A stretch of DNA of 64,000 nt from Dyella choica (GTDB taxonomy: Bacteria > Pseudomonadota > Gammaproteobacteria > Xanthomonadales > Rhodanobacteraceae). Made by a program: the position numbers and the translations under genes. The stretch's first letter is position 1; each line of letters starts with the position of its first letter. The notes under the pieces were generated by a model, which was not told the DNA's origin, searched no databases, and was given only the letters and a program-made list of their open reading frames with translations. Below, one piece after another: positions 5,535-21,445 of this stretch. The stretch lies in NCBI RefSeq assembly GCF_003977665.1, contig NZ_RYYV01000005.1, positions 186,001 to 250,000 of the forward strand. The letters run 5' to 3'.

Positions 5535-7067
5535 TCACTCGTCTTTCAGCCACAGGCTCGAAACCTGCTTCCAGCCTGTGTTCCAGATGCAGGCCGCAAA
5601 TGATGCGGCGAACGCAGCCACGGCGAGGAAGATCTGTTCGATGGGGGCATTGAGCACGATAGAACACGCGAACAGTGGCAATACCACTGTGATCGCCAAG
5701 GCCATCGGCGTCAGTACGCACTTCAGATACCAGGGCTTCCTTGCCGAATCCAGCAGCTTTCGGTAAGCCAGCGGTGCCGAAAACAGCATGTAGCCTATGT
5801 TCAATAGCAGCCACGGCCACGCCGCGCCCTGCAAGCCGTACTGCCTTACCAGGGTTATGGTCAGGATTGGGAACAGTGCGGCAGCAACAAGATTCTGGAC
5901 CAGCGAAAGGCGGGTCTTCTTGTGTGCGAGTTGCAATGCATACGGCAGGTGCATGAAGGCATTGCACATGGTACCGATTGAAATCAGCGTTAAAGGCAGG
6001 CTAGCTGAATTGGCGGCGACCTGACTTCCAGTCCATGCAAACAGCAGGGTATGCCCGAAAAACGCCAGTACGAGCGTTGCCGGTACTACCGCGACCGACA
6101 ACAGGCCGGCCGCTTGCAGATACGTGTCCTGGAGATCGGAGTTGCTGCCATGCCCATCCGCGAGCTGGGCGATTCGTGGGTAGTAGGTATTGAATACGGG
6201 TCCGGTTGCTCGCAGCGTCAAGGTGCCCGCCGACCAAGCGATCATGTAATAACCGAAAGATTCCAGGGATAACAGACGGGACAGGATGACCTTGTCGAGC
6301 TGAGTGAGAAGCAGACCCAGCACGTTGATGAGTCCGACTCCTGCGGTGAATCGGCCGGTCCTGTGGATCGACCCTAGCTGGAACCGTGCCTTGGGCGAGC
6401 CCAGGGATTTCCATACCAGGACGTGAAAACAGGACAGAGTGAGCGCACTCGCCACGCACTGCCATGCGAAGAAGACTGTGACCGTAGGCGAATACAGCCA
6501 GAGCAACAGGACGGCGCCGCCGCCTCTGCACGTCGTCGAAATGGCATTCACTACGTTCAAGCTTACTTGCCGCTGCAAGCCTATCCAGCAGCCGGTGTAG
6601 AAAGCCAAGGGAAATTGCAGTGCAATGGCGATGCCGGCCAGGGTCAATCCACGGCTGACATCGGGATATTTTTCCGGAGGCACATGGAGCCAGGAATCGG
6701 CAAGTACTGGAGACAGCGCAACCAAGCCGATGCCGATCACGAGTGCGATAAGCAGGAACAGCACTTCGACGGTGCGAAGCATGTCCGCTAAGTTCCGACG
6801 ATCAGCGCCGGTGCTGAGGGGATAGGCGACCGCCTCACGGGTAACGGTCGCCCCCAGGCCGCCATCCATGATCACCAGCAGCGCGCTCAGAGTCATAAAG
6901 AACCCGATGAGACCGAACCCTGATGCGCCAATGAAATGGAGATAGAACGGCACGAAGACTAGTGCCATCAAGGCAGACCAGCCCTGTCCGAACAGGTTGG
7001 CGAGCAGGTTGCTACGGATATGCCGTGTGTGCACGAGTTTAACTTTGCACGTGTGTCTGGCCGTCAC
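5535..7067 (-). CDS. Polysaccharide flippase, Wzx-like (MATE/MOP superfamily)
   Basis: 510-residue integral membrane protein with about 12-14 hydrophobic segments and short charged loops, typical of the MOP-superfamily Wzx exporters. These flip undecaprenyl-PP-linked oligosaccharides to the periplasmic face of the inner membrane. The N-terminal segment (NLLANLFGQGWSALMALVFV) and following MDGGLGATVTRE resemble the family. Its ATG overlaps the stop of the CmcI-like gene by 4 bases, implying translational coupling. It is the only transporter gene in the operon, so a Wzx/Wzy-type route is implied. No clear wzy polymerase gene is visible nearby. Confidence 0.85.
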   Translation of the reverse strand: MTARHTCKVKLVHTRHIRSNLLANLFGQGWSALMALVFVPFYLHFIGASGFGLIGFFMTLSALLVIMDGGLGATVTREAVAYPLSTGADRRNLADMLRTVEVLFLLIALVIGIGLVALSPVLADSWLHVPPEKYPDVSRGLTLAGIAIALQFPLAFYTGCWIGLQRQVSLNVVNAISTTCRGGGAVLLLWLYSPTVTVFFAWQCVASALTLSCFHVLVWKSLGSPKARFQLGSIHRTGRFTAGVGLINVLGLLLTQLDKVILSRLLSLESFGYYMIAWSAGTLTLRATGPVFNTYYPRIAQLADGHGSNSDLQDTYLQAAGLLSVAVVPATLVLAFFGHTLLFAWTGSQVAANSASLPLTLISIGTMCNAFMHLPYALQLAHKKTRLSLVQNLVAAALFPILTITLVRQYGLQGAAWPWLLLNIGYMLFSAPLAYRKLLDSARKPWYLKCVLTPMALAITVVLPLFACSIVLNAPIEQIFLAVAAFAASFAACIWNTGWKQVSSLWLKDE

Positions 7068-7879
7068 TCGGGGCGGCGCAAATAGCCATCGGGGGCCACC
7101 GTAATCAACAGCTTGCTTTCCAGGGCCGAGTCAAGCTCGAAGTCCAGCCTCTTGCCATCCGCGGCATAACGCCCCTCTTGCTTCAGGCTCCGCAGATACT
7201 CCCACACCGCCGTCTTGGGATTGTTGCCCTTCCCCCAGGGGCGGTCGGGGTACATCGTCTCGGGAAGATCCTCCACGACGGTATCGAACACGACGCAGTA
7301 ACTGCCCGGGCTGACAAGGGGCGCATAAGCCTCGAGTTCAGCCAGGACATGCCCATGGGTGTGGTTTGAGTCCAAGATCACCAACACGCGCTGGTGATCA
7401 GCCGCTGCAGCATGGACTTTTGCAATGATTTCCGGAGCGATTGAGGAGCCTTGGATCATGTCAATGCGATGCGCCATCGGATGCGCCTCGATCGCCGCGC
7501 GATTGTGAGCGCGGATATCGATGTCGATGCCGAGCACGCGGCGTCGTGTGGCGTTTGGATCAAGCATCTGGCCAGCTTCGATGGCGTCGCAATAATCCAG
7601 CAGCGAAAGCATCGACGCGCTGAGGATCAACGAGCCACCATGTGCGATGCCGGTTTCGATGATGAGGTCAGGCTTGACTTGCCAAATCAATTCCTGGATC
7701 GCCACCATGTCTTGCGGCACTTGGATGATGGGGCGGCCAAGCCATTGAAAGTTGTAGGCATAACGAAGTGCGGTGATATCGTTTAGCCACTCGGCAGATT
7801 TGCGTTTTATATCTCCGTTCTGACTTAACCGGAGGATGTTGTTAGCCACTTCGGACTTGAACTCTTCAGTGGGATCCAT
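7064..7879 (-). CDS. CmcI/cephalosporin hydroxylase-family SAM methyltransferase
   Basis: 271-residue protein of the CmcI/rhamnosyl O-methyltransferase family. The SAM-binding motif is LIIETGIAHGGSL (about residue 82), with ILDSNHTHGHVLAELEAYAP and a following VVFDTVVEDLP segment typical of the family. Despite the family name, members near sugar genes are thought to be O-methyltransferases of deoxysugars. The start at 7879 is chosen because GGAAGGAG lies 7 bases upstream. A start 17 codons earlier would overlap the wbqC-like gene by 65 bases and has no comparable site. Role: probably methylates a sugar of the glycan (inference). Confidence 0.75.
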   Translation of the reverse strand: MDPTEEFKSEVANNILRLSQNGDIKRKSAEWLNDITALRYAYNFQWLGRPIIQVPQDMVAIQELIWQVKPDLIIETGIAHGGSLILSASMLSLLDYCDAIEAGQMLDPNATRRRVLGIDIDIRAHNRAAIEAHPMAHRIDMIQGSSIAPEIIAKVHAAAADHQRVLVILDSNHTHGHVLAELEAYAPLVSPGSYCVVFDTVVEDLPETMYPDRPWGKGNNPKTAVWEYLRSLKQEGRYAADGKRLDFELDSALESKLLITVAPDGYLRRPE

Positions 7880-8585
7880 TGGCGAACTCCTTCCAGGAAA
7901 CGGTTCCCGAGCAGATGTGTTTTGCTCCATTGCGTCCGCAGTTGGCGATCAAATCCAATCCAGAGACGAATGGGGTGAATTCATTGCCGGACTGCGGATA
8001 TGGAATTTTCTGATAATTCATGTATCGCACCTCGACGCCGTTTGACTCGAACAGTTCGTGATCAAGATAGTTCCGTGCACCATGTCCGGTAATGTAGACT
8101 GTGGCTTCAAGTTTGCGACAGATGGCAAGCAATCGCTCGCTGCTACGGCCATGCACATCAAGCGACGCGGAGGGTATGAAGCGGCAGCGATTGTTTAAGC
8201 CGAAATATCTAACCATGGCCATGATTGATTCACGTGACACATCCGCTAGGCTGGTCGCGTGTATGGAGTGCGCATCATCGAACACGCCAATCATGTCTTC
8301 GAAATACGGTGAGTGGCGATAGTATTGGGTAAGCGTGTTTCGATGTTGCTCGCGCCAGTCGAAAGAATCGTCCACCAAAACGTGATCTATGAGGGTCTCA
8401 CGTGGGTGTTTCTTGGTTGGCACGGTTAGCCAGCGAGTGCTGCTTTCGGACCTGATCTGCACGCGATTGTAGAAGCCCCGGGTGAACTGCACATCGTCAT
8501 AATGTACAAAGGCGTCCGCGAGCTTGACCTGTTCAAGCAGGCCAACCCATGGGAAATACATTGATTGCGAAATTACAAGTTGCAT
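7866..8585 (-). CDS. WbqC-like family protein
   Basis: 239-residue protein matching the WbqC family: start MQLVISQSMYFPWVGLLEQV, then FVHYDDVQFTRGFYNRVQI, and a closing IANCGRNGAKHI motif. The family occurs in O-antigen and glycopeptide-modification clusters. Its reaction is not established as far as I know, and an N-acyl or glycine-adding role on amino sugars has been suggested. The start at 8585 leaves a 1-base gap from the formyltransferase stop. An upstream in-frame start 12 codons earlier is possible. Placement right after the formyltransferase suggests both act on the same amino sugar. Confidence 0.8.
   Translation of the reverse strand: MQLVISQSMYFPWVGLLEQVKLADAFVHYDDVQFTRGFYNRVQIRSESSTRWLTVPTKKHPRETLIDHVLVDDSFDWREQHRNTLTQYYRHSPYFEDMIGVFDDAHSIHATSLADVSRESIMAMVRYFGLNNRCRFIPSASLDVHGRSSERLLAICRKLEATVYITGHGARNYLDHELFESNGVEVRYMNYQKIPYPQSGNEFTPFVSGLDLIANCGRNGAKHICSGTVSWKEFANGSH
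7887..7894 (-). promoter_or_regulatory. Ribosome binding site deciding the CmcI-like start
   Basis: GGAAGGAG on the minus strand, 7 bases before the ATG at 7879. It lies inside the 3' end of the wbqC-like gene and is the strongest Shine-Dalgarno seen in this operon. It argues for the downstream of two in-frame ATGs. Confidence 0.7.
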
Positions 8586-8586
8586 G

Positions 8587-9270
8587 TCAGACACCGATCT
8601 CGGTGATATGGTCGCAACCAAAATTTTTCATGAAATGGGCAAACGCTTCGCGTACAGCGTTGGAAAGAGGAGCTTGCATGGGAGAGTCAACGCCAGCGAT
8701 CACCATTTCGTGCCAGCGCAAGGTTAGCCATGTTTTTTGCACAAAACTGATGCGCTCGCCGTACTCAATCGAGCAGTCAGGATCAACGGTCGTTGCAGCC
8801 TGTAATAGGATCTCTCCCGTGTCCAACCCGGCATCCACGCGGTGCAGTGTGGCACCGATATGATCGACTCTCGCACGTAGTGCCTTTCGTACAGCGCCCA
8901 GTCCTGGGAATGATGGCAGGAGCGATGGATGGATGTTGCAAACATTCATATGATCTATCAATGGCTTGTCGATTCTGCGGGTGTAAAACAGTAAAACGTC
9001 CTGCAAATCTTGGTGCCGGAAAAACGAATACGCATCTTCCGAAAACGTCCTTGCGTCTGAATAGTTGATTTCCTTCAATGCGATAGCATTGGTTTTTGCC
9101 CACCTAGACAGGCCGCAGTCTCGGTCCGTGATCACGCACCAGGACTGTTTCTTTCCGGCACTTGCCAGGCATTCGGCCGCAGCGGCCAGTGCCGACCCGC
9201 CGCTCGAGCCGATTATGCCAAGGGGGGGCGAGACAGGTGCGCGTGTCAAGGCTGGCTCAAGCTTGAGCAT
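8587..9270 (-). CDS. PurN-type formyltransferase acting on a nucleotide amino sugar (probable)
   Basis: 227-residue formyltransferase-fold protein. The catalytic triad is Asn112, His114 and Asp150, in NIHPSLLPSFPG and HRVDAGLDTG. The spacing (2 and 36) equals that of GAR transformylase PurN, so a 10-formyl-THF-dependent N-formylation is well supported. The N-terminal 100 residues are divergent from PurN, as in sugar formyltransferases (WbkC, VioF, QdtF type). It follows the DegT aminotransferase with a 25-base overlap. The likely substrate is therefore the amino group that enzyme installs (inference). Confidence 0.8.
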   Translation of the reverse strand: MLKLEPALTRAPVSPPLGIIGSSGGSALAAAAECLASAGKKQSWCVITDRDCGLSRWAKTNAIALKEINYSDARTFSEDAYSFFRHQDLQDVLLFYTRRIDKPLIDHMNVCNIHPSLLPSFPGLGAVRKALRARVDHIGATLHRVDAGLDTGEILLQAATTVDPDCSIEYGERISFVQKTWLTLRWHEMVIAGVDSPMQAPLSNAVREAFAHFMKNFGCDHITEIGV

Positions 9271-10370
9271 ACGATGCTTGACACCCGGTCAATTTCCGCA
9301 GTTGTCATGTCGTTATAACTCGGTAAATTCAGCGCCCTCCTGGACAACGACTGGCCGATTTTATGCGAAGGGTACGTGCCGAACAGGCCTAGCGACGAGA
9401 GCGGCCAGAAGAAAACACGCCCATCAATGTTGTCTGCGCGAAAGGCGGCCAGCAGGTCGTCGCGGTCGAACGGAACGTCCTTGTCGACGACGATCGTTGG
9501 CATCCAATAACCGTTAACGGTGCCGATGGGTTCGGGGTTCATCGCCAGTGGCAGCTCCGCGAGCGCGCTGCGGTAGTGCTCGAAGATACGGCGCTTAGTG
9601 GCAACCAGTTCCTCGACGCGTTCCAGCTGCGCGCAACCAATCGCGGCCTGCAAATTGGACATCTTGTACTTGAAGCCAGTCGTTGCAGGCCAGAACTGGC
9701 GTGTCTCGCCGCGGGCGCGGCCGTGATTGGACAAGGTCAGCACACGTTCGTACAGCGCATCATCGTTGGTGACGAAGACTCCGCCTTCGCCGGTGGTGAT
9801 GGTCTTGGTGCCGTGGAAAGAGAACGCGCCAAAGGCTCCCATGGAGCCGGCACGGCGACCATGCCAGATCGATCCGATGGCTTCGGCGGCATCTTCTATG
9901 AGGTGCAGTCCGTGTTTGCGGGCGACATCGGCCAGCGCGTTCATGTCGCAAAGATTGCCATACAGATGCACGGCCAGGATGGCCTTGGTGCGCGGAGTGA
10001 TTGCCGCTTCCACGGCAGCGGGATCGAGACACCAAGTATCCGATAGCACATCCACGAGCACCGGTTTTGCACCGAGGTGTACGATGGGAGCTGCTGAAGC
10101 GATCCAGTTGATATCGCCGAGGATCACTTCATCGCCGGGTCCGATGCCGAGGCCGGCCATGCCCATGTGCAGTGCGCCGGTGCCGCTGGACGTTGCGATG
10201 GCATGGGGGACCCCGAGATGTTGCCTGAACTGCTGTTCGAAGCGTTCGATGTATTCGTAGCACCTCTCGCCCCAGCCATGCGTGGCCGCATCCGTGGCAT
10301 AGCGAATCTCTAGCTCCGTTATGGATGGCTTGGTGTAGTAGATGCGGCTGCTTTTACTTTCGGCGTTCAT
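9246..10370 (-). CDS. DegT/DnrJ/EryC1/StrS-family PLP-dependent sugar aminotransferase
   Basis: 374-residue fold-type I aminotransferase. The cofactor Lys is residue 189 in SFHGTKTITTGEGG. The PLP-phosphate site ATSSGTGALHMG lies near residues 59-70, and LIEDAAEAIGS near 158-168 holds the pyridine-N aspartate. The active-site Lys excludes a RfbH-type 3-dehydrase, where it is His. Sequence style is close to GDP-perosamine synthases. It would transfer an amino group from glutamate to a 4-keto-6-deoxy nucleotide sugar. The start at 10370 overlaps the upstream stop by 4 bases. The open frame extends 31 codons further, inside the neighbouring gene. Confidence 0.85.
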   Translation of the reverse strand: MNAESKSSRIYYTKPSITELEIRYATDAATHGWGERCYEYIERFEQQFRQHLGVPHAIATSSGTGALHMGMAGLGIGPGDEVILGDINWIASAAPIVHLGAKPVLVDVLSDTWCLDPAAVEAAITPRTKAILAVHLYGNLCDMNALADVARKHGLHLIEDAAEAIGSIWHGRRAGSMGAFGAFSFHGTKTITTGEGGVFVTNDDALYERVLTLSNHGRARGETRQFWPATTGFKYKMSNLQAAIGCAQLERVEELVATKRRIFEHYRSALAELPLAMNPEPIGTVNGYWMPTIVVDKDVPFDRDDLLAAFRADNIDGRVFFWPLSSLGLFGTYPSHKIGQSLSRRALNLPSYNDMTTAEIDRVSSIVCSSLSQP

Positions 10371-11590
10371 GACATGACCAATCGTGGAATCGCGGTGACG
10401 AATTTCCCGCCCCATTCGCGGATATAGGCAAGTTGCTGTGTGATTTCCTCGCGCAGATTCCACGGCAAAATCACCACGAAGTTGGGGTGACTCTCACGGA
10501 TGCATGCTTCTTCGACGACCGGAATACGTGAGCCGGGCAGATAGCGGCCCTGCTTGTGCGGCGAGGCGTCCACCACATAGCCGAGCAGATCGGGGCGTAT
10601 ACCGGCGTAGTTGAGCAAGGTGTTGCCCTTGGCAGCGGCGCCATAGCCCACGACCTGCTTGTCATTGCGCTTGCAGTCGAGCAGGAAGGCGAGAAAGGTG
10701 TTCTTGATGTCGTCGGCCAGCGGCTGGAAGCCGTGGTAGTAGTCCATCTCCAGCATGCCGGCAGAGCGTTCCTTGGCCAGCAGAGCAGCGACGGCGGGTG
10801 TTTCGCGGTGTAAAGCCTCGTCGTGACAGGCCCACAGGCGTAGCGAGCCGCCGTGCGTAGGCAGTTCCTCAACATCCCAGATGCGCAATCCGTGGCTGGC
10901 GAAAATCCGCTGCACGGTATGGAACGAAAAATACGAAAAGTGTTCGTGATAAACGGTATCGAACTGACGTTGCGCAACCAGTTGCAGCAGATGTGGAAAT
11001 TCGACGGTGATCACACCCCGCACCGCGAGCACGACATTCAGCCCGGCCACGAAGTCGTTGAGGTCTGGTACGTGCGCCAGCACGTTGTTGGCGATCACAA
11101 GATCGGCCTGGCCTCGCGCTGCCGTGTAGTTCTGTGCGAAGCGTTTGCCGAAGAAGCGATCGAGCGTCTCGATGCCGCGCTCGCGGGCCGCCGCCGCCGT
11201 GCTGGCCGTTGGCTCGATGCCGACGCAGGGGATGCCGTGCGCCTTGACATACTGCAGGAGATAGCCGTCGTTCGATGCGATCTCCATGACCAGGCTTTGC
11301 GAATCCAGACCCAGGCGCTCCACGGCCCGATCGACGTAGTTCTTGGCGTGCGCGAGCCAGGTACGGGAGTACGACGAGAAGTAGACGTAGTCGCTGGAGA
11401 ACAATGCATCATGCTTCTGTACTTCTTCCACCTGTACCAGGTGGCAGTCGGTGCAGGTGTAAAGGCGCAGGGGGAAGTGCAACTCCGGCGAGTTCAGTTC
11501 AGCAGCATTGAGGAAGGCATTGGACGGCGGCGCGCTGCCGAGATCCAGGAACACGTCGTGCAGCGGAGTCTGGCAATAGCGGCATTTCAT
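10367..11590 (-). CDS. Sugar C-methyltransferase (zinc-motif, TylC3/NovU-type)
   Basis: 407-residue SAM-dependent methyltransferase with the three-part layout of C-3 methyltransferases acting on keto-deoxysugars. The N-terminal zinc-binding domain has CRYC at 3-6 and CTDC at 46-49. The central Rossmann domain has VMEIASNDGYLLQYV near residue 101, then a C-terminal domain with VVGYGAAAKGNTLLNY. It would add a methyl branch at C3 of the CDP-4-keto-6-deoxyhexose made by RfbF/RfbG. Both ends overlap neighbouring genes by 4 bases. It implies that a branched sugar is part of the glycan. Confidence 0.85.
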   Translation of the reverse strand: MKCRYCQTPLHDVFLDLGSAPPSNAFLNAAELNSPELHFPLRLYTCTDCHLVQVEEVQKHDALFSSDYVYFSSYSRTWLAHAKNYVDRAVERLGLDSQSLVMEIASNDGYLLQYVKAHGIPCVGIEPTASTAAAARERGIETLDRFFGKRFAQNYTAARGQADLVIANNVLAHVPDLNDFVAGLNVVLAVRGVITVEFPHLLQLVAQRQFDTVYHEHFSYFSFHTVQRIFASHGLRIWDVEELPTHGGSLRLWACHDEALHRETPAVAALLAKERSAGMLEMDYYHGFQPLADDIKNTFLAFLLDCKRNDKQVVGYGAAAKGNTLLNYAGIRPDLLGYVVDASPHKQGRYLPGSRIPVVEEACIRESHPNFVVILPWNLREEITQQLAYIREWGGKFVTAIPRLVMS

Positions 11591-12138
11591 TGGTGCACCC
11601 CGATGAACGCATCGTCGAGCAATGGGTAGCTGACATCTCGTTCGGAGATGGCGGACACCTCAAGCGGCCATTCGATGGCGAGGCGCGGGTCGTCATGACG
11701 CAGTCCGGCTTCGCAGGCGGGGGTCCAAGGCATGGTGTGCATGTAAAGCAGTTGTGCCTCGTCGGTCAGCGCCTGGAATCCGTGGGCAAAGCCTTCAGGG
11801 ATGAACACGGCGCGATCATTGTCGTCAGCGAGCTCGAATGCATGCCAATGAAGGAAGGTGGGCGAGCCCTTGCGCAGGTCCACCGCTACATCGAATACGC
11901 TTCCATGTACGCAGCGGATCAGCTTCGCCTCTGCGGCGGGTGGTGTCTGATAGTGCAGGCCGCGCAAGGTGCCGCGTGCGCGGGTTTCGGAGATATTGAT
12001 CTGCGTGAAATGCAGTCCGGGACGTATCGGCGCGAGTTCCTGCTCGCAGAATAGGCGCGTGAAACGACCGCGGGCGTCCCCGACCGGCGTGGTGCGAATT
12101 TCGTACAAGCCATCGAGTGGGGTGGGGTAGATCTTCAC
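11587..12138 (-). CDS. dTDP-4-dehydrorhamnose 3,5-epimerase-family cupin
   Basis: 183-residue RmlC-like cupin starting at GTG. The GTGA overlap with the rfbG stop and a GGAGT 7 bases upstream decide this start, although the frame is open 49 codons further. Visible are TLRGLHYQTPP (catalytic His), CVHGSVFDVAVDLRKGSPTF, FIPEGFAHGF and the closing DPRLAIEWP. The segment that normally reads Y-x-x-T-x-YY-x-P is here YMHTMPWTP, so the catalytic tyrosine appears absent. It probably epimerises the CDP-keto sugar at one position before or after C-methylation. It is not expected to make dTDP-rhamnose, since no rmlA/B/D genes are seen. Confidence 0.8.
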   Translation of the reverse strand: MKIYPTPLDGLYEIRTTPVGDARGRFTRLFCEQELAPIRPGLHFTQINISETRARGTLRGLHYQTPPAAEAKLIRCVHGSVFDVAVDLRKGSPTFLHWHAFELADDNDRAVFIPEGFAHGFQALTDEAQLLYMHTMPWTPACEAGLRHDDPRLAIEWPLEVSAISERDVSYPLLDDAFIGVHQ

Positions 12139-13229
12139 ACTGTCCACTCCAGGCCGGCGTAGCGGGCGTCGTCGACATAAGCGACAAGATCGCGCTCGCT
12201 GTCGATTCGCTGCGCTTCGTAGTAGCCGCGATACCATGAGGCTGTCCTGCCCAACGCTGTGCTGAGGTTCCAGACGGGCCGCCACGCGAGCTGCTGTCGC
12301 GCCCTGTCGCAGTTCAGGCGTAGAAGTTTTGCTTCATGCGGATGCCATGCTCGATCGTGCTCGGTGCGTAATGCGGGCCAATGAGTGCTAAGTTGCGAAA
12401 CGAGCGAGCCGACGCTGATTTCATCAGCAGCGTCAGGGCCGAAGTTCCACGCGCCGGCGAAACCGGCGTCGTTCCAGAGCAATTGTCCGAGGCGCAAATA
12501 GCCCGAAAGTGGCTCTAGCACATGTTGCCAAGGACGCACCGCTGCAGGATTGCGGATCATGAGTGCACCGCCCGTTGCGGCAGCGCGAACCAGGTCCGGG
12601 ACTAGCCGATCTTCGGCCCAGTCGCCACCGCCGATCACATTGCCAGCTCGCGCAGTGGCGACGCGGACGGGGGATTCTCCGGCACCTTCGGCCGCGAAAA
12701 AGCTCTTACGATAGCTGTCCGAAACCAGTTCGGCGCAAGCCTTGGAGCTGCTGTATGGATCGTGGCCACCAAGCGGATCGGTTTCCCGGTACCCGTCGGG
12801 GTTCGCATGCTCAGCGTAGACCTTGTCGGTAGTGGCATTGATCAGCACGCGCACGGATGCGCAACTGCGGGCGGCCTCGAACAGGTTGACGAGCCCCATC
12901 ACGTTGGTATCGAACGTGCCCACCGGATCACGGTAGCTGCGGCGGACCAAGGGCTGGGCCGCAAGATGGAAAATGATTTCGGGGCGATGGGTATCGAACA
13001 CCCTTGCCAGGCCCTCGGCATCGCGCAGGTCCACGCGATGATCGGCGACATCACTCAAGCCTAGAATGTGCCAATGCGATGGATGGGTGTCCGGATCCAG
13101 TGCAAGCCCGGCAATCTCGGCATTCAGTGCACGCAGCCACAGGGCCAGCCAGGAGCCCTTGAATCCGGTGTGGCCGGTGACCAGCACCCGCCGCCCGGCA
13201 TAGGTGCCGCCGAACAGGTTCAAGGCCAC
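12135..13229 (-). CDS. rfbG: CDP-glucose 4,6-dehydratase
   Basis: 364-residue extended SDR enzyme converting CDP-glucose to CDP-4-keto-6-deoxyglucose. It shows the NAD-binding VLVTGHTGFKGSWLALWL (residues 15-32), the Thr-Asp-Lys of INATTDKVYAE, the Tyr-x3-Lys of DPYSSSKACAE and RAGNVIGGGDWAEDRLVPD, all strong signatures of RfbG. Length fits the family. It overlaps rfbF by 10 bases upstream and the epimerase by 4 downstream. With RfbF it supplies the keto sugar for the C-methyltransferase branch. Confidence 0.93.
   Translation of the reverse strand: MALNLFGGTYAGRRVLVTGHTGFKGSWLALWLRALNAEIAGLALDPDTHPSHWHILGLSDVADHRVDLRDAEGLARVFDTHRPEIIFHLAAQPLVRRSYRDPVGTFDTNVMGLVNLFEAARSCASVRVLINATTDKVYAEHANPDGYRETDPLGGHDPYSSSKACAELVSDSYRKSFFAAEGAGESPVRVATARAGNVIGGGDWAEDRLVPDLVRAAATGGALMIRNPAAVRPWQHVLEPLSGYLRLGQLLWNDAGFAGAWNFGPDAADEISVGSLVSQLSTHWPALRTEHDRAWHPHEAKLLRLNCDRARQQLAWRPVWNLSTALGRTASWYRGYYEAQRIDSERDLVAYVDDARYAGLEWTV
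12146..12150 (-). promoter_or_regulatory. Ribosome binding site for the GTG start of the epimerase
   Basis: GGAGT on the minus strand, 7 bases before the GTG at 12138. The other in-frame GTG at 12147 lies right next to it and is too close to be used. Confidence 0.55.
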
Positions 13230-13990
13230 ACCTTCCAGGGTGCCTTGCCGGTTTGCCAGAGCTCTTCCAGCTTGATCCTGTCGCGCAGCGTGTCCATGGG
13301 TTGCCAGAACCCGTCGTGGGTGTAGGCGGACAGTTGATGGTTGCGAGCGAGCGATTCCAATGGCTCTCTTTCCCAGGTGGTGTCATCGCCTGCGATGTAG
13401 CTCAGGACGGCCGGCTCAAGCACGAAGAAACCGCCATTGATCCATGAGCCGTCGCCCAGGGGCTTTTCGCTGAAACGGGTGATGCGGTTGCCTACAAGAT
13501 CCAGAGCACCGAATCGTCCGGGCGGCTGCACAGCGCATACCGTGGCCAGGGTGCCCTGGGCGCGATGGAAAGCGAGTTCAGCTTGGATGTCGATGTCCGA
13601 AAGACCATCGCCGTAGGTGAAGCAAAATGTCTCGTTTTCGAGAAATTCACTCACGCGTTTCAATCGCCCACCGGTCTGGGTCTGCTCACCAGTATCGACG
13701 AGCGTGATGCGCCATGGTTCTGCGTGGCGATGATGCACGTGCATCTGGTTTTTCGACAGGTCGAAAGTGATGTCGGATGTGTGCAGGAAATAGTTGGAGA
13801 AATATTCTTTGATCATGTACCCCTTGTAGCCAAGGCAGACGATGAAGTCATTGACGCCGTGGTGGGAGTACGTCTTCAAAATGTGCCACAGCACCGGCTT
13901 GCCGCCAACTTCGATCATGGGCTTGGGGCGGACGATCGATTCCTCGCTGATCCTGGTCCCCAGGCCGCCTGCGAGAATGACTGCCTTCAT
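13220..13990 (-). CDS. rfbF: Glucose-1-phosphate cytidylyltransferase
   Basis: 256-residue nucleotidyltransferase forming CDP-glucose from CTP and glucose-1-phosphate. The start at MKAVILAGGLGTRISEES gives the family's usual length. The open frame continues 48 codons upstream only as overlap with the fucose synthase gene. Typical motifs are the G-x-GTR phosphate loop (residues 9-14), RPKPMIEVGGKPVLWHI and FCFTYGDGLSDID. The ATG overlaps the upstream stop by 4 bases. First committed step of the CDP-sugar branch. Confidence 0.93.
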   Translation of the reverse strand: MKAVILAGGLGTRISEESIVRPKPMIEVGGKPVLWHILKTYSHHGVNDFIVCLGYKGYMIKEYFSNYFLHTSDITFDLSKNQMHVHHRHAEPWRITLVDTGEQTQTGGRLKRVSEFLENETFCFTYGDGLSDIDIQAELAFHRAQGTLATVCAVQPPGRFGALDLVGNRITRFSEKPLGDGSWINGGFFVLEPAVLSYIAGDDTTWEREPLESLARNHQLSAYTHDGFWQPMDTLRDRIKLEELWQTGKAPWKVWP

Positions 13991-14970
13991 TTTTTGGCGT
14001 CCTGCGCGAGGCCTGGGTACATATCGATCTGCGCCTTCGGGGCGTTGTCCCGGTAGTCGGCGTAAGTTTGCATGAGGCCGTCTTCGAGGTTGGTCATGAG
14101 GGTGGGCCCGAGCAGCGCCTGCATGCGTCCGCAATCCAGCAGCTTGCGCGGCGTTCCATCCGGCTTGCTGTGGTCGAATCCGATCTTTCCCGCATATCCG
14201 ACCACATGGGAGATGGCATTGGCCAATGCCGCGATGCTGACCTCGAGTCCGGATCCGACGTTGACGATTTCTTCGCCGCTGTAATGCTCCATCAGCAGTA
14301 CCAGCGCTCTGGCGAGGTCGTCGACATACAGGAATTCGCGCAGCGGCTTGCCGCTTCCCCAGATCATGATCTCGGGGGCATTGGAAAGCTTCGATTCATG
14401 AAAGCGCCGGATCAAGGCTGGGACTACATGGGCGTTTTCAGGGTGATAGTTGTCGCCGGGCCCATACAAATTGGTCGGCATGGTCACAATGGCGTCGAAA
14501 CCATGCTCGCGACGATACGCCTGGCACATCCGCAAGCCGGCGATCTTCGCTATCGCATAGGGCTCGTTGCTTGGCTCCAGTGGCCCGGTCAGGAGGTACT
14601 CTTCCTTGATGGGTTGAGGACAGTCTCGTGGGTAAATACACGACGAACCGAGGAAGAGGAGTTTCCTGGTGCCGTGCTTCCAAGCCGAGTGGATGACATG
14701 GGTCTGGATGGCCAGGTTGTCTCGGATGAATTCCGCCGGGTAGGTGCTGTTGGCGAGGATGCCACCGACCTTGGCGGCGGCCAGGAATACATAGTCCGGC
14801 CGCTCGGTGGCGAAAAAATCATCAACGGCGGCCTGGCAGGAAAGATCCAGTTCCTGGTGCGAGCGCAGGATCAGATTGCGCGCGCCGCGGGATGTGAGGT
14901 GACGGACGATCGCACCTCCCACCAGGCCACGATGGCCGGCCACGTAGATTCGCCCTCGCTGCAAGTCCAT
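13987..14970 (-). CDS. fcl: GDP-L-fucose synthase
   Basis: 327-residue bifunctional epimerase/reductase turning GDP-4-keto-6-deoxymannose into GDP-L-fucose. The start MDLQRGRIYVAGHRGLVGGA is chosen over an open 46-codon extension because it places the Rossmann motif at the usual place and leaves a 5-base gap from gmd. Catalytic signatures are LGSSCIYPRDCPQPIKE, EPYAIAKIAGL (Tyr and Lys) and TNLYGPGDNYHPENAHV. It directly follows gmd and is translationally coupled to rfbF. The gene pair gmd-fcl is the canonical GDP-fucose route. Also named wcaG. Confidence 0.93.
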   Translation of the reverse strand: MDLQRGRIYVAGHRGLVGGAIVRHLTSRGARNLILRSHQELDLSCQAAVDDFFATERPDYVFLAAAKVGGILANSTYPAEFIRDNLAIQTHVIHSAWKHGTRKLLFLGSSCIYPRDCPQPIKEEYLLTGPLEPSNEPYAIAKIAGLRMCQAYRREHGFDAIVTMPTNLYGPGDNYHPENAHVVPALIRRFHESKLSNAPEIMIWGSGKPLREFLYVDDLARALVLLMEHYSGEEIVNVGSGLEVSIAALANAISHVVGYAGKIGFDHSKPDGTPRKLLDCGRMQALLGPTLMTNLEDGLMQTYADYRDNAPKAQIDMYPGLAQDAKK

Positions 14971-14975
14971 GAGCT

Positions 14976-16085
14976 TCAGTCCTGCGCAGACACAGTATGG
15001 AAGCCGGCCGTGCGCATAAGTGCGTCGCGACGGGACAATGCCAGGTCGGAGTGCATCATCTCCGCGACCATCTCGCGAAAGCCGGTGCGCGGCGACCAAC
15101 CGAGGCACTTGCGCGCCTTGCTGGCGTCGCCGAGCAGCGTTTCGACTTCGGCCGGGCGATAGTAGCGCGGGTCGACGGCCACGATGCGCTGGCCAGGGCG
15201 AACCGCCGATTCAGTCGGCGTGTCGACAGCGATGGCTTCTTCTGCGGCACCCGTACCCTGCCAGTTGAGCGTGATGCCTACTTCACGGGCTGCGTATTCC
15301 ACGAATTCACGGACCGTGTGCTGCACCCCCGTTGCAATGACGAAATCATCAGCCTTCGGTTGCTGCAACATGAGCCACTGTGCTTCTACATAGTCGCGCG
15401 CATGGCCCCAGTCGCGCCTGGCATCCAGGTTGCCCAGATACAGGCACTGCTGGAGCCCCTGGTGAAGACGGGCGAGGCCGCGGGTAATCTTGCGGCTCAC
15501 GAATGTTTCACCGCGCGAGGGAGATTCGTGGTTGAAGAGAATGCCATTACAGGCGTACATCCCATAGGACTCGCGATAGTTGACGGTGATCCAATAGGCG
15601 TAGAGCTTGGCCACGCCATAGGGCGAGCGTGGGTGAAAAGGAGTGCTTTCCCGTTGCGGGGTCTCTTGCACGAGGCCGTACAGCTCCGAGGTCGAGGCCT
15701 GATAGAAGCGAGTCTTGTGCTCGAGTCCAAGGATGCGGATGGCTTCCAACAGGCGCAGGGACCCCAGCGCGTCGGCGTTGGCGGTGTATTCGGGTGTCTC
15801 GAACGACACCTGCACATGGCTCTGGGCGCCTAGGTTGTAGATCTCATCCGGCTGTATCTGCTGGACGATGCGGATCAGGTTGGTGGCATCGGTGAGGTCG
15901 CCGTAGTGCAGGAAGAATCGACGCCCCGGATCGTGAGGATCCTGGTAGAGATGGTCTATGCGATCGGTATTGAAGGATGACGCACGGCGCTTGATGCCGT
16001 GCACTTCGTAGCCTTTTGCCAAGAGGAACTCGGCCAGATAGGCCCCGTCCTGACCGGTGATGCCTGAGATCAGTGCGCGCTTCAT
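14976..16085 (-). CDS. gmd: GDP-mannose 4,6-dehydratase
   Basis: 369-residue extended SDR dehydratase producing GDP-4-keto-6-deoxy-D-mannose. Visible are [20 protein letters not shown], the NADP-contact [26 protein letters not shown] (Thr/Ser and Glu) and [12 protein letters not shown] (Tyr and Lys). The C-terminus is about 10-20 residues longer than typical. It is the first sugar-nucleotide gene, starting only 17 bases after the upstream GT-C gene, with no room for an obvious promoter or terminator. Its product can feed both Fcl and a perosamine-type aminotransferase. Confidence 0.93.
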
Positions 16086-16102: not shown

Positions 16103-18196
16103 TTAGTGCGAGCCTAGGTGGCTGCTGAGCTCGTCCAATTGGTCGTCCAGCCTGCCGCCAGTATTGAGCAAGCGTAGCCGATCCAGCGCCTTGATCGCGA
16201 CTTGCCGCTGCCCTTGCGCCACAAGCATGCGGATCCTTGTGACCTGGTAGGCGGGTTCGTGGGGCGCGCCTTGCACGGCGCCCTCGATCATCCGTAGGCC
16301 CAGTGCATGGTCGTCAAGTACGTTCCAGGCATAGTCGCTGTAAATGGCCTGCAGGCGGGGGGTGGGGTGAGCAAGTGCGGTCTCGAAGGCCTGGACCATG
16401 CGGTCGGTGGGCAGGGGGCAGGCGCTAGCCCGGGCGCATTGGACGAGCGCAGCGAGCGAGCTCTCGTCCTGCACTCCTGGCGGCCTGGCGCTGAGCTTGG
16501 CGACCATGCTGTCCCACCATTGTGCCTTGAGCGGCCGGCCCATGCGCGAGTTCATGAATATCAGCGCCTGCTGCGGCAGGATCGAGGATTGGGGAAGGGC
16601 GGCGGCCCGCTCCAGGGGTGCATACGCCAGTTCCGTATAGGGCGAGGCTGGATCGTAGTGCGAGTAGATGATGTAGGTGCGACCCAGCTCATACTGGGCT
16701 CGAGGTGAGTCGGGGCCGCGCGATGCGAGTTCCCGGGCGAGGCGTAACGGATCGCCCCAGGCATACGCGGTGGTTGCCGTCGATGCGGTCCACCATAGCA
16801 ACAGGCAAGCCAGCAATGCCTGGGGTAACCAAGCCGGCCATGGACCTCCTGGCTTGGGATTTGGTAAGCCCATTGCGGCAGGCGTCGCGGCGAGCAAGGG
16901 CACCAGGGCCAGCAGCACGCCGAAACTGGCGAAATAGTTGCGGTGCTCGTAGACCAGTTCCAGCGGAAGGATGGTGCCGGTCAACAGGTGGCAACCCAAA
17001 TACAACGCGATGCTCAATGACAGCAGCGGCTGCTTGCGGCGTAGCGTGAAAATCAACGCGACCAGGGCGGCGAGGCAAAGCATGCCTGCCAGGGTGGTCC
17101 ATGGCGATAGCAAACCGGTCGAGACGTTGAAATCGTCGTGATAGAACGACAGGTCATGCGGCAACGGGAGCAGCGTCCACACAAGATAGTCGCAGAGGAT
17201 GCGTGCCTCGCTCAGCAGTCGGGTGCCCAGCGTGAAGTCGCGCGTGGCCCAAGCCGAAGGGCTGAGTACGGCAGGCAGCAGCCATATCAGGCCGAGGATG
17301 AGCGGCAGCAGGAGCATGAGGGCGAACATGGTGGCGATGCGCCAATCCCTCCTTCTGCCATGCTTGGGGGGGGCTCTCAGGCGGAAAACGATCCATTCGA
17401 TCAGGAACGCATACAGCGGCAACATCACCGCTGTTTCCTTGACCGCGAGGCCGATTACCGTGAACAGGATCAGGCTTGCGATGCACAGCCACAGGCCGAC
17501 TGGTACTGATCGTCCTCGGCTGGCAAGAGGACGCACGGCTGCGGTGGCCGCTATTTCGTGCTCATTGCTCTGTGTGTGATCGGGGAAATGATTTGCCGCG
17601 CCGTCCGTGCGCAGCATGCTCAGTCGACCCGTCACGTAGCCGAGCAGGCCCAGCAGGACGAACAGGTTCGCCATGCTCTCCTCTCTCTGCACCACGTAAA
17701 GCACGGCCGTCAGGTTGATCGGCAGTAGCATCCAGCCGGCTGCAATCAGTATGGCAATCCAATCCGCACCCTGGTGCTGCCGGCGTTCCCCTGCCTGCGC
17801 AGCGTGTGCCGGACTTGAAGGGTGGGCACGATCAGGGAAGAGGGTGGCTTTCAGCAGCTCCCGTGCCAGCAGGAACACAAGCACCCCGTTCACAAGGTGC
17901 ACGACGAGGTTGAACAGCTTCCAGCTCCAAGGATCGAGGCCACCGATCAGGTAATTCACTGCAAAGCTCAACGAAGCGAGCGGGCGCTTGAATTCGCTGG
18001 CGGGCGAGGAAAGCGCTGCGCCCCATATGGCCGGCACGCTGATCTCGTGCGGCTGCACGCTCGGATTGTCGACGATATTGGGATAGTCGTCGAACAACCA
18101 GCCGCCGGAGAGGCCAGGCCAATAGGCCGCCGCGGTGATCAGCAGCGCGATCGGTAAAAGCCAGCGCATCGTGTACATGTTCCGGAAAGTGATCAT
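16103..18196 (-). CDS. TMTC-like GT-C membrane glycosyltransferase with C-terminal helical repeats
   Basis: 697-residue polytopic membrane protein. After the first membrane segment comes an acidic loop with LFDDYPN (Asp36-Asp37), then [18 protein letters not shown] and [18 protein letters not shown]. These strongly recall TMTC/GT-C O-mannosyltransferases, in which the first-loop DD is catalytic. About 10-11 hydrophobic segments extend to about residue 470 and include [11 protein letters not shown]. The rest is soluble, periplasmic and TPR-like. It may start at 18196 (GGATGAC before ATG) or at the ATG at 18169. It is a paralogue of the next gene upstream. Proposed role: transferring a polyprenol-linked sugar to an exported acceptor such as pilin. 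A Wzy-like role is possible. Confidence 0.65.
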
Positions 18197-18253
18197 GTCA
18201 TCCAGGCGGAAAGGAACAGCCGCTATTCTGCCGCACCACGCCGCGCGCTGCGT

Positions 18254-20188
18254 TTATTGAGACTTGCTGGCCGCGGGTGCCCCGGGATTGCGCATTTTTT
18301 CGATTTCGACGATGGCGGCCGCATCGATCGCGCGGTCGTCCACCAGCAAGCGGCGAAGGAGCGGCAGGCGGCTGTAGTCCGCGCTGCGCAGTGTGCTTAT
18401 GGCCTGGCCGTACAAGCTTGCGCTTGCCAAGTACTTGGCTCGCAGGCGGGGAATTTCGGCATCGGGGTCGTTGCGATAGGTCTCGTCCAGTTCCTGGATG
18501 GTCATGTCCAACCGGCCATGCGCCACCGCCCAGAAATGCTTCTGGTAATGCAGGAATCCAGCGGCCAGGCCATCATTTCGATAGGCCGGGTTGCCGAGCA
18601 GGATATCGGCGCTGTGCAGCCAAGCCTGATCGTCGAACGCCGGACAGCGCCCGTTGGCGGCCAGTTCGCGTAGTGTCGACATATTTTCAAAGCCGCTGCG
18701 GTCGAATGGCGCAATGCGCAGAATGTCATCCATCCGCTGGACATCCGCTGCCGTCAGCCTACCTTGCATGCACAGCAGGTAAAGGCGATTTTCCGCGAGA
18801 CCCGCGTTGGCGGGATGGCGAACATCAATGGCATCGATCACCTGCAGGGATTGGTCCACCATGCCGTGCTGCAGTAATTGCTGGGCCAGGAAGCTCTGGG
18901 CACGGATCGAGTCCGGTTGGTTGTGGGCCCAAGTGGCAGCCAGGCGCTCCGCGGAGGAATAAACACGGGCACTGAGTGCTGTGGTGAGGCAGCAGGCCAT
19001 TAGCCACAGACCACAAACCAGCAGGTAAAGACGCCTCCTTTGCGGGGTCTCGCGTGCGATCCCGATGGCGAGCGCTGCCATGACACCCATCAGCGGCAGG
19101 TAATTGCGATGCTCGAAATACAGCTCCAACATGACCGTCGAGCTTTCCAGCAACTGGCCGCCGAGGTACCAGAGTATGCCCAGCGAAAGCAGTGGCCAGC
19201 GGCGTGTACCAACCACGGCCACGACCAGTGCGGCCAAAAGAGCCAGCAGGCACGGGCCGGTGGTCCAAGGATTGAACCATCCTTGCGATACGACAAAACT
19301 ATCGTGGTACAGGCCGTAGAGTCCGAAGCGAGGCACAAAGCTTTTGTCGAGATAGCTGGCCAGTGCCCGCGGCTCAGTCAGCAGACGCTCGCCGAGGGTG
19401 AAATCGCGGAACCCGTGAACTCCCCACTGCACTGGTATCTGCCACAGCAAGTAGCCCAGCACGAACAACACTACTGGCCAGATCAGCAAACGGCGCAGCC
19501 AGGACAGCCGGCTGGGCAGTCGACGCACAGCTTGGCGCAACACGGTGGCATCGAGCGCCAAGGCATACAGCGGCAACAGGATTCCATTTTCCTTGCTGAG
19601 GAAGGCCAGCCCCGTGCATGCGCCAAGGCCCAGCATCATCCATATGCCCCGCCGCCAATCCTGTGCGTTCGTCTCCAGCAGCGCGCGCAGATAGGCCTGC
19701 AGGCCTAGCAGCACGAAGAACGCCATCAGCAGCGTCATGCGCTGTACCACGAGCAGCACGCCTGAGATCTGGATCGGATCGAGTAGCCAGGCTGCTGTAG
19801 CGAGATTGGCGGCCAGCCAGGCACGTCGCTCGTCGGCTTGGTCAGCCAGGTAGGTACGTGCCAGACGCAGCACAAGCAGGAACACCAGCACACCATTCAG
19901 CAGATGCAGGCCGATGTTTACCAAACGGAATGGAAAGGGGTGGTCTGGCCATGCCGACTTCTGCAACAGGAAGCTCAGCATGGCCAAGGGTCTGCCCGGG
20001 AAGCTGCGGGGTTGGGACAGGTAGATGCCTAAGTCGCGCCAGCTCGAAACATGATCGATGCTGGTCAATGCCGCGAGATTGGGAAAGTCGTCGAACAGGA
20101 ACGGGCCGTGCAGAGCGGGCCAATACAGTGCGGTACAAACAGCCAGTACTAGAACCAAGAAAAGCAAAGCACGTTGTTGCAGCGGCAT
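18254..20188 (-). CDS. TMTC-like GT-C membrane glycosyltransferase, second paralogue
   Basis: 644-residue membrane protein built like its downstream neighbour: a first membrane segment, the acidic loop FLFDDFPN (Asp33-Asp34), RPLAMLSFLLQKSAW and [18 protein letters not shown], about ten further hydrophobic segments with LYFEHRNYLPLMGV, then a soluble helical C-terminal region of about 210 residues. The ATG at 20188 aligns with the paralogue's start region. The frame is open to a TTG at 20251 without a visible ribosome site. It follows the sigma-54-driven pilin gene by under 80 bases. Probably a glycosyltransferase working on the periplasmic side. Acceptor unproven. Confidence 0.65.
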   Translation of the reverse strand: MPLQQRALLFLVLVLAVCTALYWPALHGPFLFDDFPNLAALTSIDHVSSWRDLGIYLSQPRSFPGRPLAMLSFLLQKSAWPDHPFPFRLVNIGLHLLNGVLVFLLVLRLARTYLADQADERRAWLAANLATAAWLLDPIQISGVLLVVQRMTLLMAFFVLLGLQAYLRALLETNAQDWRRGIWMMLGLGACTGLAFLSKENGILLPLYALALDATVLRQAVRRLPSRLSWLRRLLIWPVVLFVLGYLLWQIPVQWGVHGFRDFTLGERLLTEPRALASYLDKSFVPRFGLYGLYHDSFVVSQGWFNPWTTGPCLLALLAALVVAVVGTRRWPLLSLGILWYLGGQLLESSTVMLELYFEHRNYLPLMGVMAALAIGIARETPQRRRLYLLVCGLWLMACCLTTALSARVYSSAERLAATWAHNQPDSIRAQSFLAQQLLQHGMVDQSLQVIDAIDVRHPANAGLAENRLYLLCMQGRLTAADVQRMDDILRIAPFDRSGFENMSTLRELAANGRCPAFDDQAWLHSADILLGNPAYRNDGLAAGFLHYQKHFWAVAHGRLDMTIQELDETYRNDPDAEIPRLRAKYLASASLYGQAISTLRSADYSRLPLLRRLLVDDRAIDAAAIVEIEKMRNPGAPAASKSQ

Positions 20189-20266
20189 GGTGGGCCTTGG
20201 TGGCGTGGACTGGACCTGGACAGCCGACGCCGCGGCTACGGCGAGAATCAAAGGCTGCTTCAGCGT

Positions 20267-20701
20267 TTATTGGCAGGTCGCTGGCAGATAGGTCGCATCC
20301 GCGTTGCTGGTGCATTGCCAGTCGGCTGTACCGCTGCTTGCGCTTAGGGTGAACGTCACTGTTTTACCCTGCAATCGAGGCGAGATGCTTGCATTGCGCA
20401 TGGTAGCTGTCACTGTGCAGCCGCCGGCAACGATTGGCGAAACGTCTACTTGCGCTACGAATTTGCCGCTGTAGCTTGCGGCCGCGCTGAGACCATTGCT
20501 GCCGGTGGCGGGGCAGTTGCCAGTCTGATTGTAGTACTCCGCTATCGGGGTCTTCATGCCGTCGACGATAGTGAAGGCTTCACTCAGTTGTGCCTTGCCA
20601 GTGGAATTTTGGTAGACAGTGATGGCGATGGAGGCAAGGATAGCGACAATGGCCACCACAATCATCAGTTCGATTAACGTGAAACCTTTTTGGGTCTTCA
20701 T
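20267..20701 (-). CDS. pilA: Type IV pilin (PilA-like), copy adjacent to GT-C genes
   Basis: 144-residue prepilin. A five-residue leader MKTQK precedes the PilD cleavage/N-methylation site G-FTLIE, with Glu5 conserved and a hydrophobic alpha-1N helix to about residue 30. The C-terminal Cys pair (CTSNADATYLPATC) forms the disulfide-bounded D-region, and a second Cys pair lies mid-domain. The globular part is Ser/Thr rich, which could serve O-glycosylation. A consensus sigma-54 promoter lies 41 bases upstream. Its 45-residue N-terminus is close to the other pilin gene and the rest differs. Which of the two is the major subunit cannot be told. Confidence 0.9.
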   Translation of the reverse strand: MKTQKGFTLIELMIVVAIVAILASIAITVYQNSTGKAQLSEAFTIVDGMKTPIAEYYNQTGNCPATGSNGLSAAASYSGKFVAQVDVSPIVAGGCTVTATMRNASISPRLQGKTVTFTLSASSGTADWQCTSNADATYLPATCQ

Positions 20702-20741
20702 GGTTTGCGTGATCCCCCTTCACGGATACCAAAAAATCGAG

Positions 20742-20757
20742 AGCAACCAGCGTGCCA
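20742..20757 (-). promoter_or_regulatory. Sigma-54 (RpoN) promoter of the inner pilin gene
   Basis: Minus-strand TGGCACGCTGGTTGCT matches the -24/-12 consensus TGGCACG-N4-TTGC(A/T) at every defined base, 41 bases before the pilin ATG. RpoN with the PilR activator drives pilA in pseudomonads and xanthomonads. It lies just inside the terminator that ends the other pilin unit, so the two units are separately controlled. Confidence 0.88.
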
Positions 20758-20786
20758 TGAATCCGTTCAAAACGGACCTGCGTCGC

Positions 20787-20817
20787 AAAAGAAAGGGCTC
20801 CAAGAATTAGGAGCCCC
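20787..20817 (-). terminator. Intrinsic terminator after the outer pilin gene
   Basis: On the minus strand a 7-bp stem GGGCTCC/GGAGCCC (20795-20801 with 20810-20816, 8-base loop) is followed by TTTCTTTT. It sits 48 bases after the stop of the outer pilin gene and should separate it from the inner pilin-GT-C unit. Confidence 0.85.
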
Positions 20818-20864
20818 TTCGGATTGAAACCGTTGCACTAAGGCAGTTACGAGATACTACCTAA

Positions 20865-21305
20865 TTAGTTGCAAACAGCGGGCTTGTACTGAGTTGCAAG
20901 TCCGTTGGTCGTGCAGACCCACGAGAAGGTGCCGCCGTTGTTGGTGCCAGTGATGGTTACCGTCTTACCCACCAGCGGTGAGGACACCGAACCAGCAGCC
21001 TTGAACGCCATTTGGATCGTGCACGGGCCAGCACCGCCGGCGGTGTCTGCCTTAGCAACGTACTTGCCGACGTAGCTCGTGTCCAACGCGATGCCGCCCG
21101 TGCCATTGGCTGGGCATTGGCCGGTCTGGTTGAAGTACTCCACGATCGGGGTCTTCAGGCCATCGGCGATCGTTTGCGTCTCAGAGAACTGCGACTTGGT
21201 GATGTAGTTCTGGTACTGCGGAATGGCGATAGCGGCCAGGATCGCGATGATCGCAACCACGATCATCAGTTCGATCAGGGTAAAGCCTTTTTGCATGGTC
21301 TTCAT
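20865..21305 (-). CDS. pilA: Type IV major pilin-like protein
   Basis: 146-residue prepilin with a six-residue leader MKTMQK and the cleavage site G-FTLIELMIVVAIIAILAA. Glu5 and the canonical AIPQYQNY stretch are present. Cys pairs occur mid-domain (QCP with PC) and at the C-terminus (CTTNGLATQYKPAVC), the latter bounding the D-region. It has its own sigma-54 promoter about 125 bases upstream and its own terminator, so it can be expressed as a single-gene unit. This fits a highly expressed major subunit of the twitching/adhesion pilus. Its twin lies just downstream. Confidence 0.92.
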   Translation of the reverse strand: MKTMQKGFTLIELMIVVAIIAILAAIAIPQYQNYITKSQFSETQTIADGLKTPIVEYFNQTGQCPANGTGGIALDTSYVGKYVAKADTAGGAGPCTIQMAFKAAGSVSSPLVGKTVTITGTNNGGTFSWVCTTNGLATQYKPAVCN

Positions 21306-21429: not shown

Positions 21430-21445
21430 TGCACTATACATGCCA
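21430..21445 (-). promoter_or_regulatory. Sigma-54 (RpoN) promoter of the outer pilin gene
   Basis: Minus-strand TGGCATGTATAGTGCA fits the -24/-12 pattern with the correct 8-base spacing between TGGC and TGC. It has two mismatches to TGGCACG-N4-TTGCA. It would give a 5' untranslated region of roughly 110-120 bases before the pilin ATG at 21305. Confidence 0.72.

Follow-up and report, generated by a model that had tools for sequence, protein, structure and literature searches.

Two type IVa pilin genes in Dyella choica are followed by genes for two membrane proteins and a large island of sugar genes, which together probably constitute a dedicated pilin O-glycosylation system. It would use a glycan linked to a lipid phosphate, and its parts would be a transferase combining a GT-C domain with TPR repeats, a synthase-like GT2 and a variable set of glycan genes. 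This reading builds on the predicted fold, the motifs, the gene set, the recurrence of the linkage and the co-variation of the proteins, from which we infer every catalytic step as well as the glycan itself. The locus seems to represent a widespread system for the sugar decoration of type IV pili that has so far gone undescribed. Pilin glycosylation by TfpO and TfpW is described as protection against pilus-specific phages (PMC11841053), and glycoengineering makes use of pilin O-OTases (PMC12645811). If the GT-C/TPR family constitutes a further O-OTase class, a large family gains a testable function, and the combination of pilin, GT-C, lipid-sugar synthase and glycan genes would predict where unknown pilin glycans occur.

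Pilins, GT-C proteins and the glycan island

The window, i.e. the whole stretch of 64,000 nucleotides that was analysed, contains the four core genes in the following arrangement, all on the minus strand:

20865..21305, minus strand: pilin 1, a type IVa pilin of 146 aa (PF00114 and N_methyl)
20267..20701, minus strand: pilin 2, a type IVa pilin of 144 aa (PF00114 and N_methyl)
18254..20188, minus strand: GT-C protein A (the first GT-C), 644 aa, GT-C membrane domain and C-terminal TPR-like helical domain, ATG start at 20188
16103..18196, minus strand: GT-C protein B (the second GT-C), 697 aa, architecture as in A

A previous sequence-only reading had described two different pilins followed by two paralogous membrane proteins. 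This is borne out: both pilins match PF00114, carry the N-terminal methylation motif of type IVa pilins and are 58% identical, while A and B share 35% identity over 417 columns (E 3e-47). The longest ORF of A begins further upstream, with a TTG at 20251. Because two of the three PF00114 matches in the 5.49 Mb genome sit at this locus, the pair is unlikely to be there by chance.

No Pfam or NCBIfam model matches A or B at or above its cut-off, and among the matches listed, their closest named relatives are Dyella and Rhodanobacter proteins. The family is large, with at least 2,525 to 4,341 matches at E 0.001 among those listed, and where these have names, they are general ones (hypothetical protein, tetratricopeptide repeat protein, ArnT family glycosyltransferase, protein O-mannosyl-transferase). 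The motifs LFDD(Y/F)PN, RPLA-x-LSF and EHRNY, which had been noticed before, are present in both proteins. An alignment of 34 diverse relatives shows no variation at the two aspartates of the first loop, at R68 (RP motif), at K201 or at H362 and R363 (EHRNY); in a wider, unfiltered set that includes partial and distant ORFs, 217 of 238 contain the pattern F[DE][DE] and 212 of 238 the pattern E[HK]RN[YF]. Acidic residues in the first periplasmic loop, as found here, are a hallmark of the GT-C superfamily. The fold had been set beforehand as a check on which the glycosylation reading could fail, and structure comparison indeed assigns a predicted GT-C membrane fold to A and B: plain Foldseek gave weak scores and mixed lists, a second look with VIA a clear GT-C list, and AglB is among the best matches of the predicted folds. 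The C-terminal helical parts, also noted earlier, match TPR proteins; sequence searches of the PDB with A and B returned nothing useful, and profile searches returned TPR-type proteins only.

Proteins more distantly related to the GT-C family (47-71 bits) are encoded no more than a few kb upstream of the pilins in 13 loci (L034, L038, L049, L055, L060, L062, L076, L077, L078, L091, L102, L103 and L111), in three of which they stand in tandem. Another protein of about 500 aa (e.g. L040:13130-14629, minus strand), whose one scanned representative has no Pfam or NCBIfam match, looks by eye like a further membrane glycosyltransferase; its relatives, found in 36 of the family-set loci, often lie immediately upstream of the pilins.

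Downstream of B lies a 23-kb island, which contains sugar-nucleotide, glycosyltransferase and flippase genes and is bracketed at its far end by a synthase-like GT2:

14976..16085, minus strand: GDP-mannose 4,6-dehydratase (gmd), beginning 17 bp past the end of GT-C B
13987..15060, minus strand: GDP-L-fucose synthase-like protein (466.6 bits, under the equivalog cut-off of 500)
13220..13993, minus strand: glucose-1-phosphate cytidylyltransferase
12135..13229, minus strand: CDP-glucose 4,6-dehydratase
11587..12144, minus strand: RmlC-type 3,5-epimerase
10367..11590, minus strand: sugar C-methyltransferase-like protein (Methyltransf_13/14)
9246..10370, minus strand: DegT-type sugar aminotransferase
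8587..9270, minus strand: formyl transferase domain protein, putatively for sugar N-formylation
7866..8621, minus strand: WbqC-like protein
7064..7930, minus strand: RMNT_CmcI-type protein, O-methyltransferase-like
5535..7067, minus strand: Polysacc_synt (Wzx-type) flippase-like protein
4632..5522, minus strand: GT2 glycosyltransferase
3490..4830, minus strand: GT4 glycosyltransferase
2509..3483, minus strand: sugar-nucleotide enzyme of the GDP_Man_Dehyd/Epimerase family
1722..2498, plus strand: GT2 glycosyltransferase
656..1600, minus strand: GT2 glycosyltransferase
1..687, plus strand: GT4 glycosyltransferase, 3' part
G000:C45:183894-184751 (window base 1 is C45:186001, so 1.2-2.1 kb before it), opposite to the GT-C strand: synthase-like GT2 (PF00535)

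From the far end, this last gene is followed by a methyltransferase and then by the GT4 gene that runs into the window. The extent first given for the feature, 16103..21305, therefore holds the genes as described, but the feature itself extends some 2.1 kb past window base 1. The predicted content of the island would suit an oligosaccharide that the synthase initiates and the GT-C enzymes use. Elsewhere in the window, near the pilin locus, an acyltransferase-3 protein fused to an SGNH domain is encoded (25121-27124, plus strand); proteins of this kind can acylate surface glycans. The only GtrA copy of the genome lies beside genes apparently unrelated to glycan transfer.

Recurrence, partner genes and co-variation

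Co-occurrence of the GT-C family with pilins elsewhere, likewise set beforehand as a check, holds across the order and in other Gammaproteobacteria. Within the family Rhodanobacteraceae, 127 of 147 genomes have a match to A, and from 100 of these we sampled one locus each. A pilin lies within 500 bp of a GT-C gene in 91 of the 100 loci, and the nine misses comprise one contig end and eight loci of a single genus (g25). All eight g25 loci examined are without a nearby pilin, four of them having less than 3 kb of upstream sequence; PF00114 pilins are present in g25 on other contigs or far away. In such loci (e.g. L039, L041, L048, L053), pilins are elsewhere while the synthase lies near the GT-C genes in the two genomes checked, which offers a natural test of the pilin role. 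Pilins do not require the GT-C protein: of the 20 family genomes that have no GT-C match, 16 possess PF00114 pilins.

At the order level, a match is present in 92 of 200 genomes, of which 60 lie outside Rhodanobacteraceae; of 40 loci sampled from these 60, 35 contain a pilin no more than 500 bp away, and the arrangement differs among them. Across loci, the pilins lie upstream, downstream or convergent relative to the GT-C gene. Among 80 named loci from GTDB genomes, which were found by one conserved peptide and kept by score and are thus biased to close relatives, 61 have a pilin within 500 bp (18 of 18 titled Rhodanobacteraceae or one of its genera, and 43 of 62 others); in seven of the 19 misses, pilins are about 4.7 kb off, beyond pilC- and pilB-type genes. 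Linked examples outside the family include Pseudomonas viridiflava, Microbulbifer, Thiothrix, Methylotuvimicrobium and a Gallionellaceae MAG. At the class level, 88 of 274 genomes have a match; 29 of the best-scoring loci, with flanks of up to 1.5 kb, include 19 with a pilin, and six of the ten misses have less than 500 bp of upstream sequence. Pooled, the sets hold 249 loci, 238 of them distinct, with a pilin within 500 bp in 195 and none at this distance in 43.

The synthase-like GT2 recurs as well. It forms one clear orthologous group (87 matches of at least 265 bits, the next at 89 bits) and is found in 87 of the 238 distinct loci, 84 of which also have a pilin. In 43, it lies within 300 bp of the GT-C gene on the same strand, many of the genes overlapping; in 37, it faces the GT-C gene across variable sugar genes, 3.0-8.2 kb off. 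It was not seen in 151 of the 238 loci within the DNA examined (flanks of about 1.5-9 kb; 7-9 kb from the GT-C genes in the family set); in all five genomes searched whole, two of them g25, it lies 4-17 kb from a GT-C gene. Its sole NCBIfam match at E 1e-20 is AglJ (TIGR04182), at 117 bits against an equivalog cut-off of 325, and for the L200 copy, AglJ is followed by dolichyl-phosphate hexose and ArnC-type synthases. Its GT2 domain is related to lipid-phosphate glycosyl synthases, a likeness that indicates kinship only. The gene product thus resembles a polyprenyl-phosphate sugar synthase, and such a recurrent partner fits the lipid-linked donor, a sugar on polyprenol phosphate, that the sequence-only reading had proposed.

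The 100 family loci differ in gene content: two pilins accompany two GT-C genes in 62, one pilin two GT-C genes in 11 (13 if loci at contig ends are counted), one pilin one GT-C gene in seven, two pilins one GT-C gene in four and three pilins two GT-C genes in three, while six are without a pilin and seven are cut by contig ends. Of 85 loci with two GT-C genes, 24 show a 4-bp overlap between them. L095, L163 and L164 have an extra pilin between both GT-C genes.

Protein distances could be compared in 44 of 101 loci, the window included, which have both GT-C genes, a pair of pilins and c0, a gene that flanks them upstream; c0, by eye an S9 peptidase, served as the single proxy for species descent. 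The distances between first GT-C proteins track the pilin distances (rank r 0.88 for pilin 1 and 0.77 for pilin 2), whereas the second GT-C tracks neither (0.09 and 0.03), and c0 is uncorrelated with the pilins. When the ten loci of the window's own GT-C type are removed (n=34), the values for pilin 1 and pilin 2 are 0.79 and 0.64 for the first GT-C and 0.27 and 0.15 for the second. Sliding windows over these 34 loci give the same picture, with 15 of 15 along the first GT-C correlating with pilin 1 (0.59-0.80), and the 15 along the second at 0.02-0.32. Within the ten loci of the window's type, the pattern is absent (first GT-C, -0.14 with pilin 1 and 0.55 with pilin 2; second GT-C, -0.14 and 0.83). 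The first GT-C and the pilins thus form one inherited unit, sharply bordered, in most of the 44 loci. Exchange of these three neighbours as one block is sufficient to produce the co-variation without functional matching; that the first GT-C is functionally matched to the pilins would be a further step of inference.

These results bear on two earlier suggestions. The idea of one enzyme per pilin is weakened to the point of rejection by the loci with one pilin and two GT-C genes and by co-variation of the first GT-C only, a pattern that does not extend to the window's ten-locus subset. Likewise, A and B had been taken for twins, and a recent duplication can be ruled out: in a tree of a subsample of 174 sequences, B falls into a clade (support 1.0) in which 37 of 43 genes occupy the second position, and A into a different one.

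Proposed mechanism and alternatives

We propose the following pathway. Polyprenyl phosphate would receive a first sugar from the distal, synthase-like GT2, and the island glycosyltransferases would extend this to a short oligosaccharide, with deoxy, amino, formyl and methyl sugars supplied by the island enzymes. The Wzx-like protein would flip the lipid-linked oligosaccharide, and the GT-C/TPR proteins would move the glycan onto serine or threonine residues of the pilin in the periplasm. In these proteins, the first-loop DD may form the catalytic or metal site, the arginine of EHRNY may be the ligand of the lipid phosphate, and the TPR domain may help to hold the acceptor. GT-C A would be the enzyme matched to the pilins, while GT-C B would probably add a second unit or have a role on the glycan side. 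As to the acceptor, an alignment of 217 linked pilins has several columns rich in serine or threonine, none outstanding except the N-terminal threonine.

The closest analogy is with TMTC1-4, the O-mannosyltransferases of the animal ER (GT-C/PMT clan), which share with A and B the first-loop DD, the RP motif, the fifth-loop arginine and the C-terminal TPR repeats, a correspondence made by hand from PMC7801869. There, the first-loop pair of TMTCs and related sugar transferases is described as the active site and the fifth-loop arginine as contacting the lipid phosphate, and by this likeness, a protein acceptor would be expected for A and B, too. The earlier label 'TMTC-type' thus stands for the aspartate pair, the arginine and the TPR domain, but not for PF08409 (TMTC_DUF1736), which is not among the matches of A and B at E up to 1; furthermore, A and B are bacterial, pilin-linked and accompanied by a lipid-sugar-synthase-like partner and a glycan island. 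A search for PF08409 in 249 genomes of the phylum gave no match, and carries little weight, as the control gave none either; the same holds for PglL_A, which matched in no control genome, so that its absence elsewhere carries no weight.

A 2025 review describes four classes of O-OTases, all of them WaaL-like (PMC12645811). The genes for TfpO, TfpM, PglS and many PglL neighbour pilin genes, and these enzymes transfer a lipid-linked glycan to pilin in the periplasm (PMC12645811, PMC3643930). PglL, PglS, TfpO and TfpM carry a WaaL-like O-antigen-ligase domain (PMC12645811), whereas A and B have no Wzy_C match in Pfam at E up to 1. Moreover, TfpO and TfpM pilins have a C-terminal serine or threonine, while the window pilins end in N and Q and only 23 of 221 GT-C-linked pilin ORFs (some loci counted twice) end in S or T, which rules out a C-terminal acceptor of this type. 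In the same 221 ORFs, with the same double counting, arginine is the last residue in 87, a curious bias. Judged by these sequence features, the locus is a system apart from both TMTC, for want of PF08409, and the WaaL-like O-OTases, for want of Wzy_C and the C-terminal sequon. By analogy, a mode of action like that of TMTC/PMT or Stt3-type enzymes would be the best reading. The archaeal N-glycosylation pair AglJ/AglB recurs here in the family match of the partner GT2 and in the fold matches of the GT-C proteins; it differs in that the GT2 scores below the equivalog cut-off, the host is bacterial, an O-linkage is expected and the GT-C proteins have TPR repeats. Tentatively, we consider it quite possible that these proteins represent a separate class of bacterial protein O-glycosylation, in which Stt3/TMTC-like GT-C/TPR enzymes transfer a glycan from polyprenyl monophosphate, initiated in the AglJ manner as in archaea, to major type IV pilins; it would be widespread in Gammaproteobacteria and a few other Proteobacteria, with pilins and GT-C exchanged between strains as a matched cassette. 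A literature search, whose scope excluded most subscription papers and all preprints, yielded no recognised description of the GT-C/TPR family with pilins.

Several observations count against pilin glycosylation: the ten loci of the window's GT-C type without co-variation, the pilins in 16 of 20 family genomes lacking a GT-C match, the eight of eight g25 loci without a nearby pilin, the 151 of 238 loci without a synthase in the examined DNA, the 43 of 238 without a pilin within 500 bp and the weak plain Foldseek scores. The GT-C proteins might instead glycosylate a surface polysaccharide or LPS, with the pilins adjacent for another reason. Their genes do lie at the edge of an O-antigen-like island, glycan genes (judged from scanned representatives) follow in many family loci, and in two g25 genomes the GT-C genes and the synthase share a contig without nearby pilins. 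We nevertheless regard this as unlikely: several of the named loci outside the family run in the order pilin, GT-C, synthase, with pilB/pilC-type or two-component genes beside the pilin, and the linkage recurs in all three orientations. Furthermore, the 19 longer ORFs that were scanned (16 in the window and three outside) have no match to a polymerase, a ligase or an initiating phosphoglycosyl transferase, keeping in mind that such polymerases can escape Pfam, and neither of the two Wzy_C matches in the genome falls on this contig.

TfpW of Pseudomonas aeruginosa group IV is described as a pilin-linked GT-C enzyme that glycosylates pilin (PMC11841053), and A and B may be related to it. That A and B are arabinosyltransferases of the same kind, which act alike and add D-Araf, is quite unlikely: no arabinofuranose pathway gene was recognised among the scanned ORFs of the Dyella choica island, and none of the 120 relatives of the Pseudomonas viridiflava member among the matches listed is named TfpW, most rows being nameless.

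We find it very unlikely that A and B are pilus assembly or accessory factors, akin to TfpY/TfpZ or, through their TPR repeats, to PilF, with a non-catalytic GT-C fold. TPR domains commonly bind proteins, and 15 of the family loci contain a cluster that is assigned, by its one scanned representative, to the TfpX/TfpZ-type accessory proteins (NF041437). By contrast, an NCBIfam search at E up to 1 gave A and B themselves no match to NF041437, which covers TfpX/TfpY/TfpZ accessory proteins, all 34 aligned sequences have the same residues at the presumed catalytic and phosphate-binding positions, and the recurrent synthase partner would be left unexplained.

Candidate regulatory elements of the pilin genes

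Between the two pilin genes lies a hairpin with a T-rich tail (20791..20820, minus strand; -22.7 kcal/mol, z -3.87), which resembles a terminator or attenuator and is missing from the hits of the consensus scan. A terminator behind the major pilin gene has been described in organisms with pilin accessory genes (PMC11841053).

Each pilin gene is preceded by a sigma-54-like site:

21430..21445, minus strand: TGGCATGTATAGTGCA, upstream of pilin 1
20742..20757, minus strand: TGGCACGCTGGTTGCT, upstream of pilin 2

A third site lies inside GT-C B; these three occurrences compare with 0.46 expected in the window, and 4 of 100 shuffles reached three. The calls follow what we take to be the sigma-54 consensus. 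In the family set, 20 of 67 first pilins and 31 of 67 second pilins have a sigma-54-like site in the 250 bp before them, compared with 4 of 1340 random 250-bp stretches.
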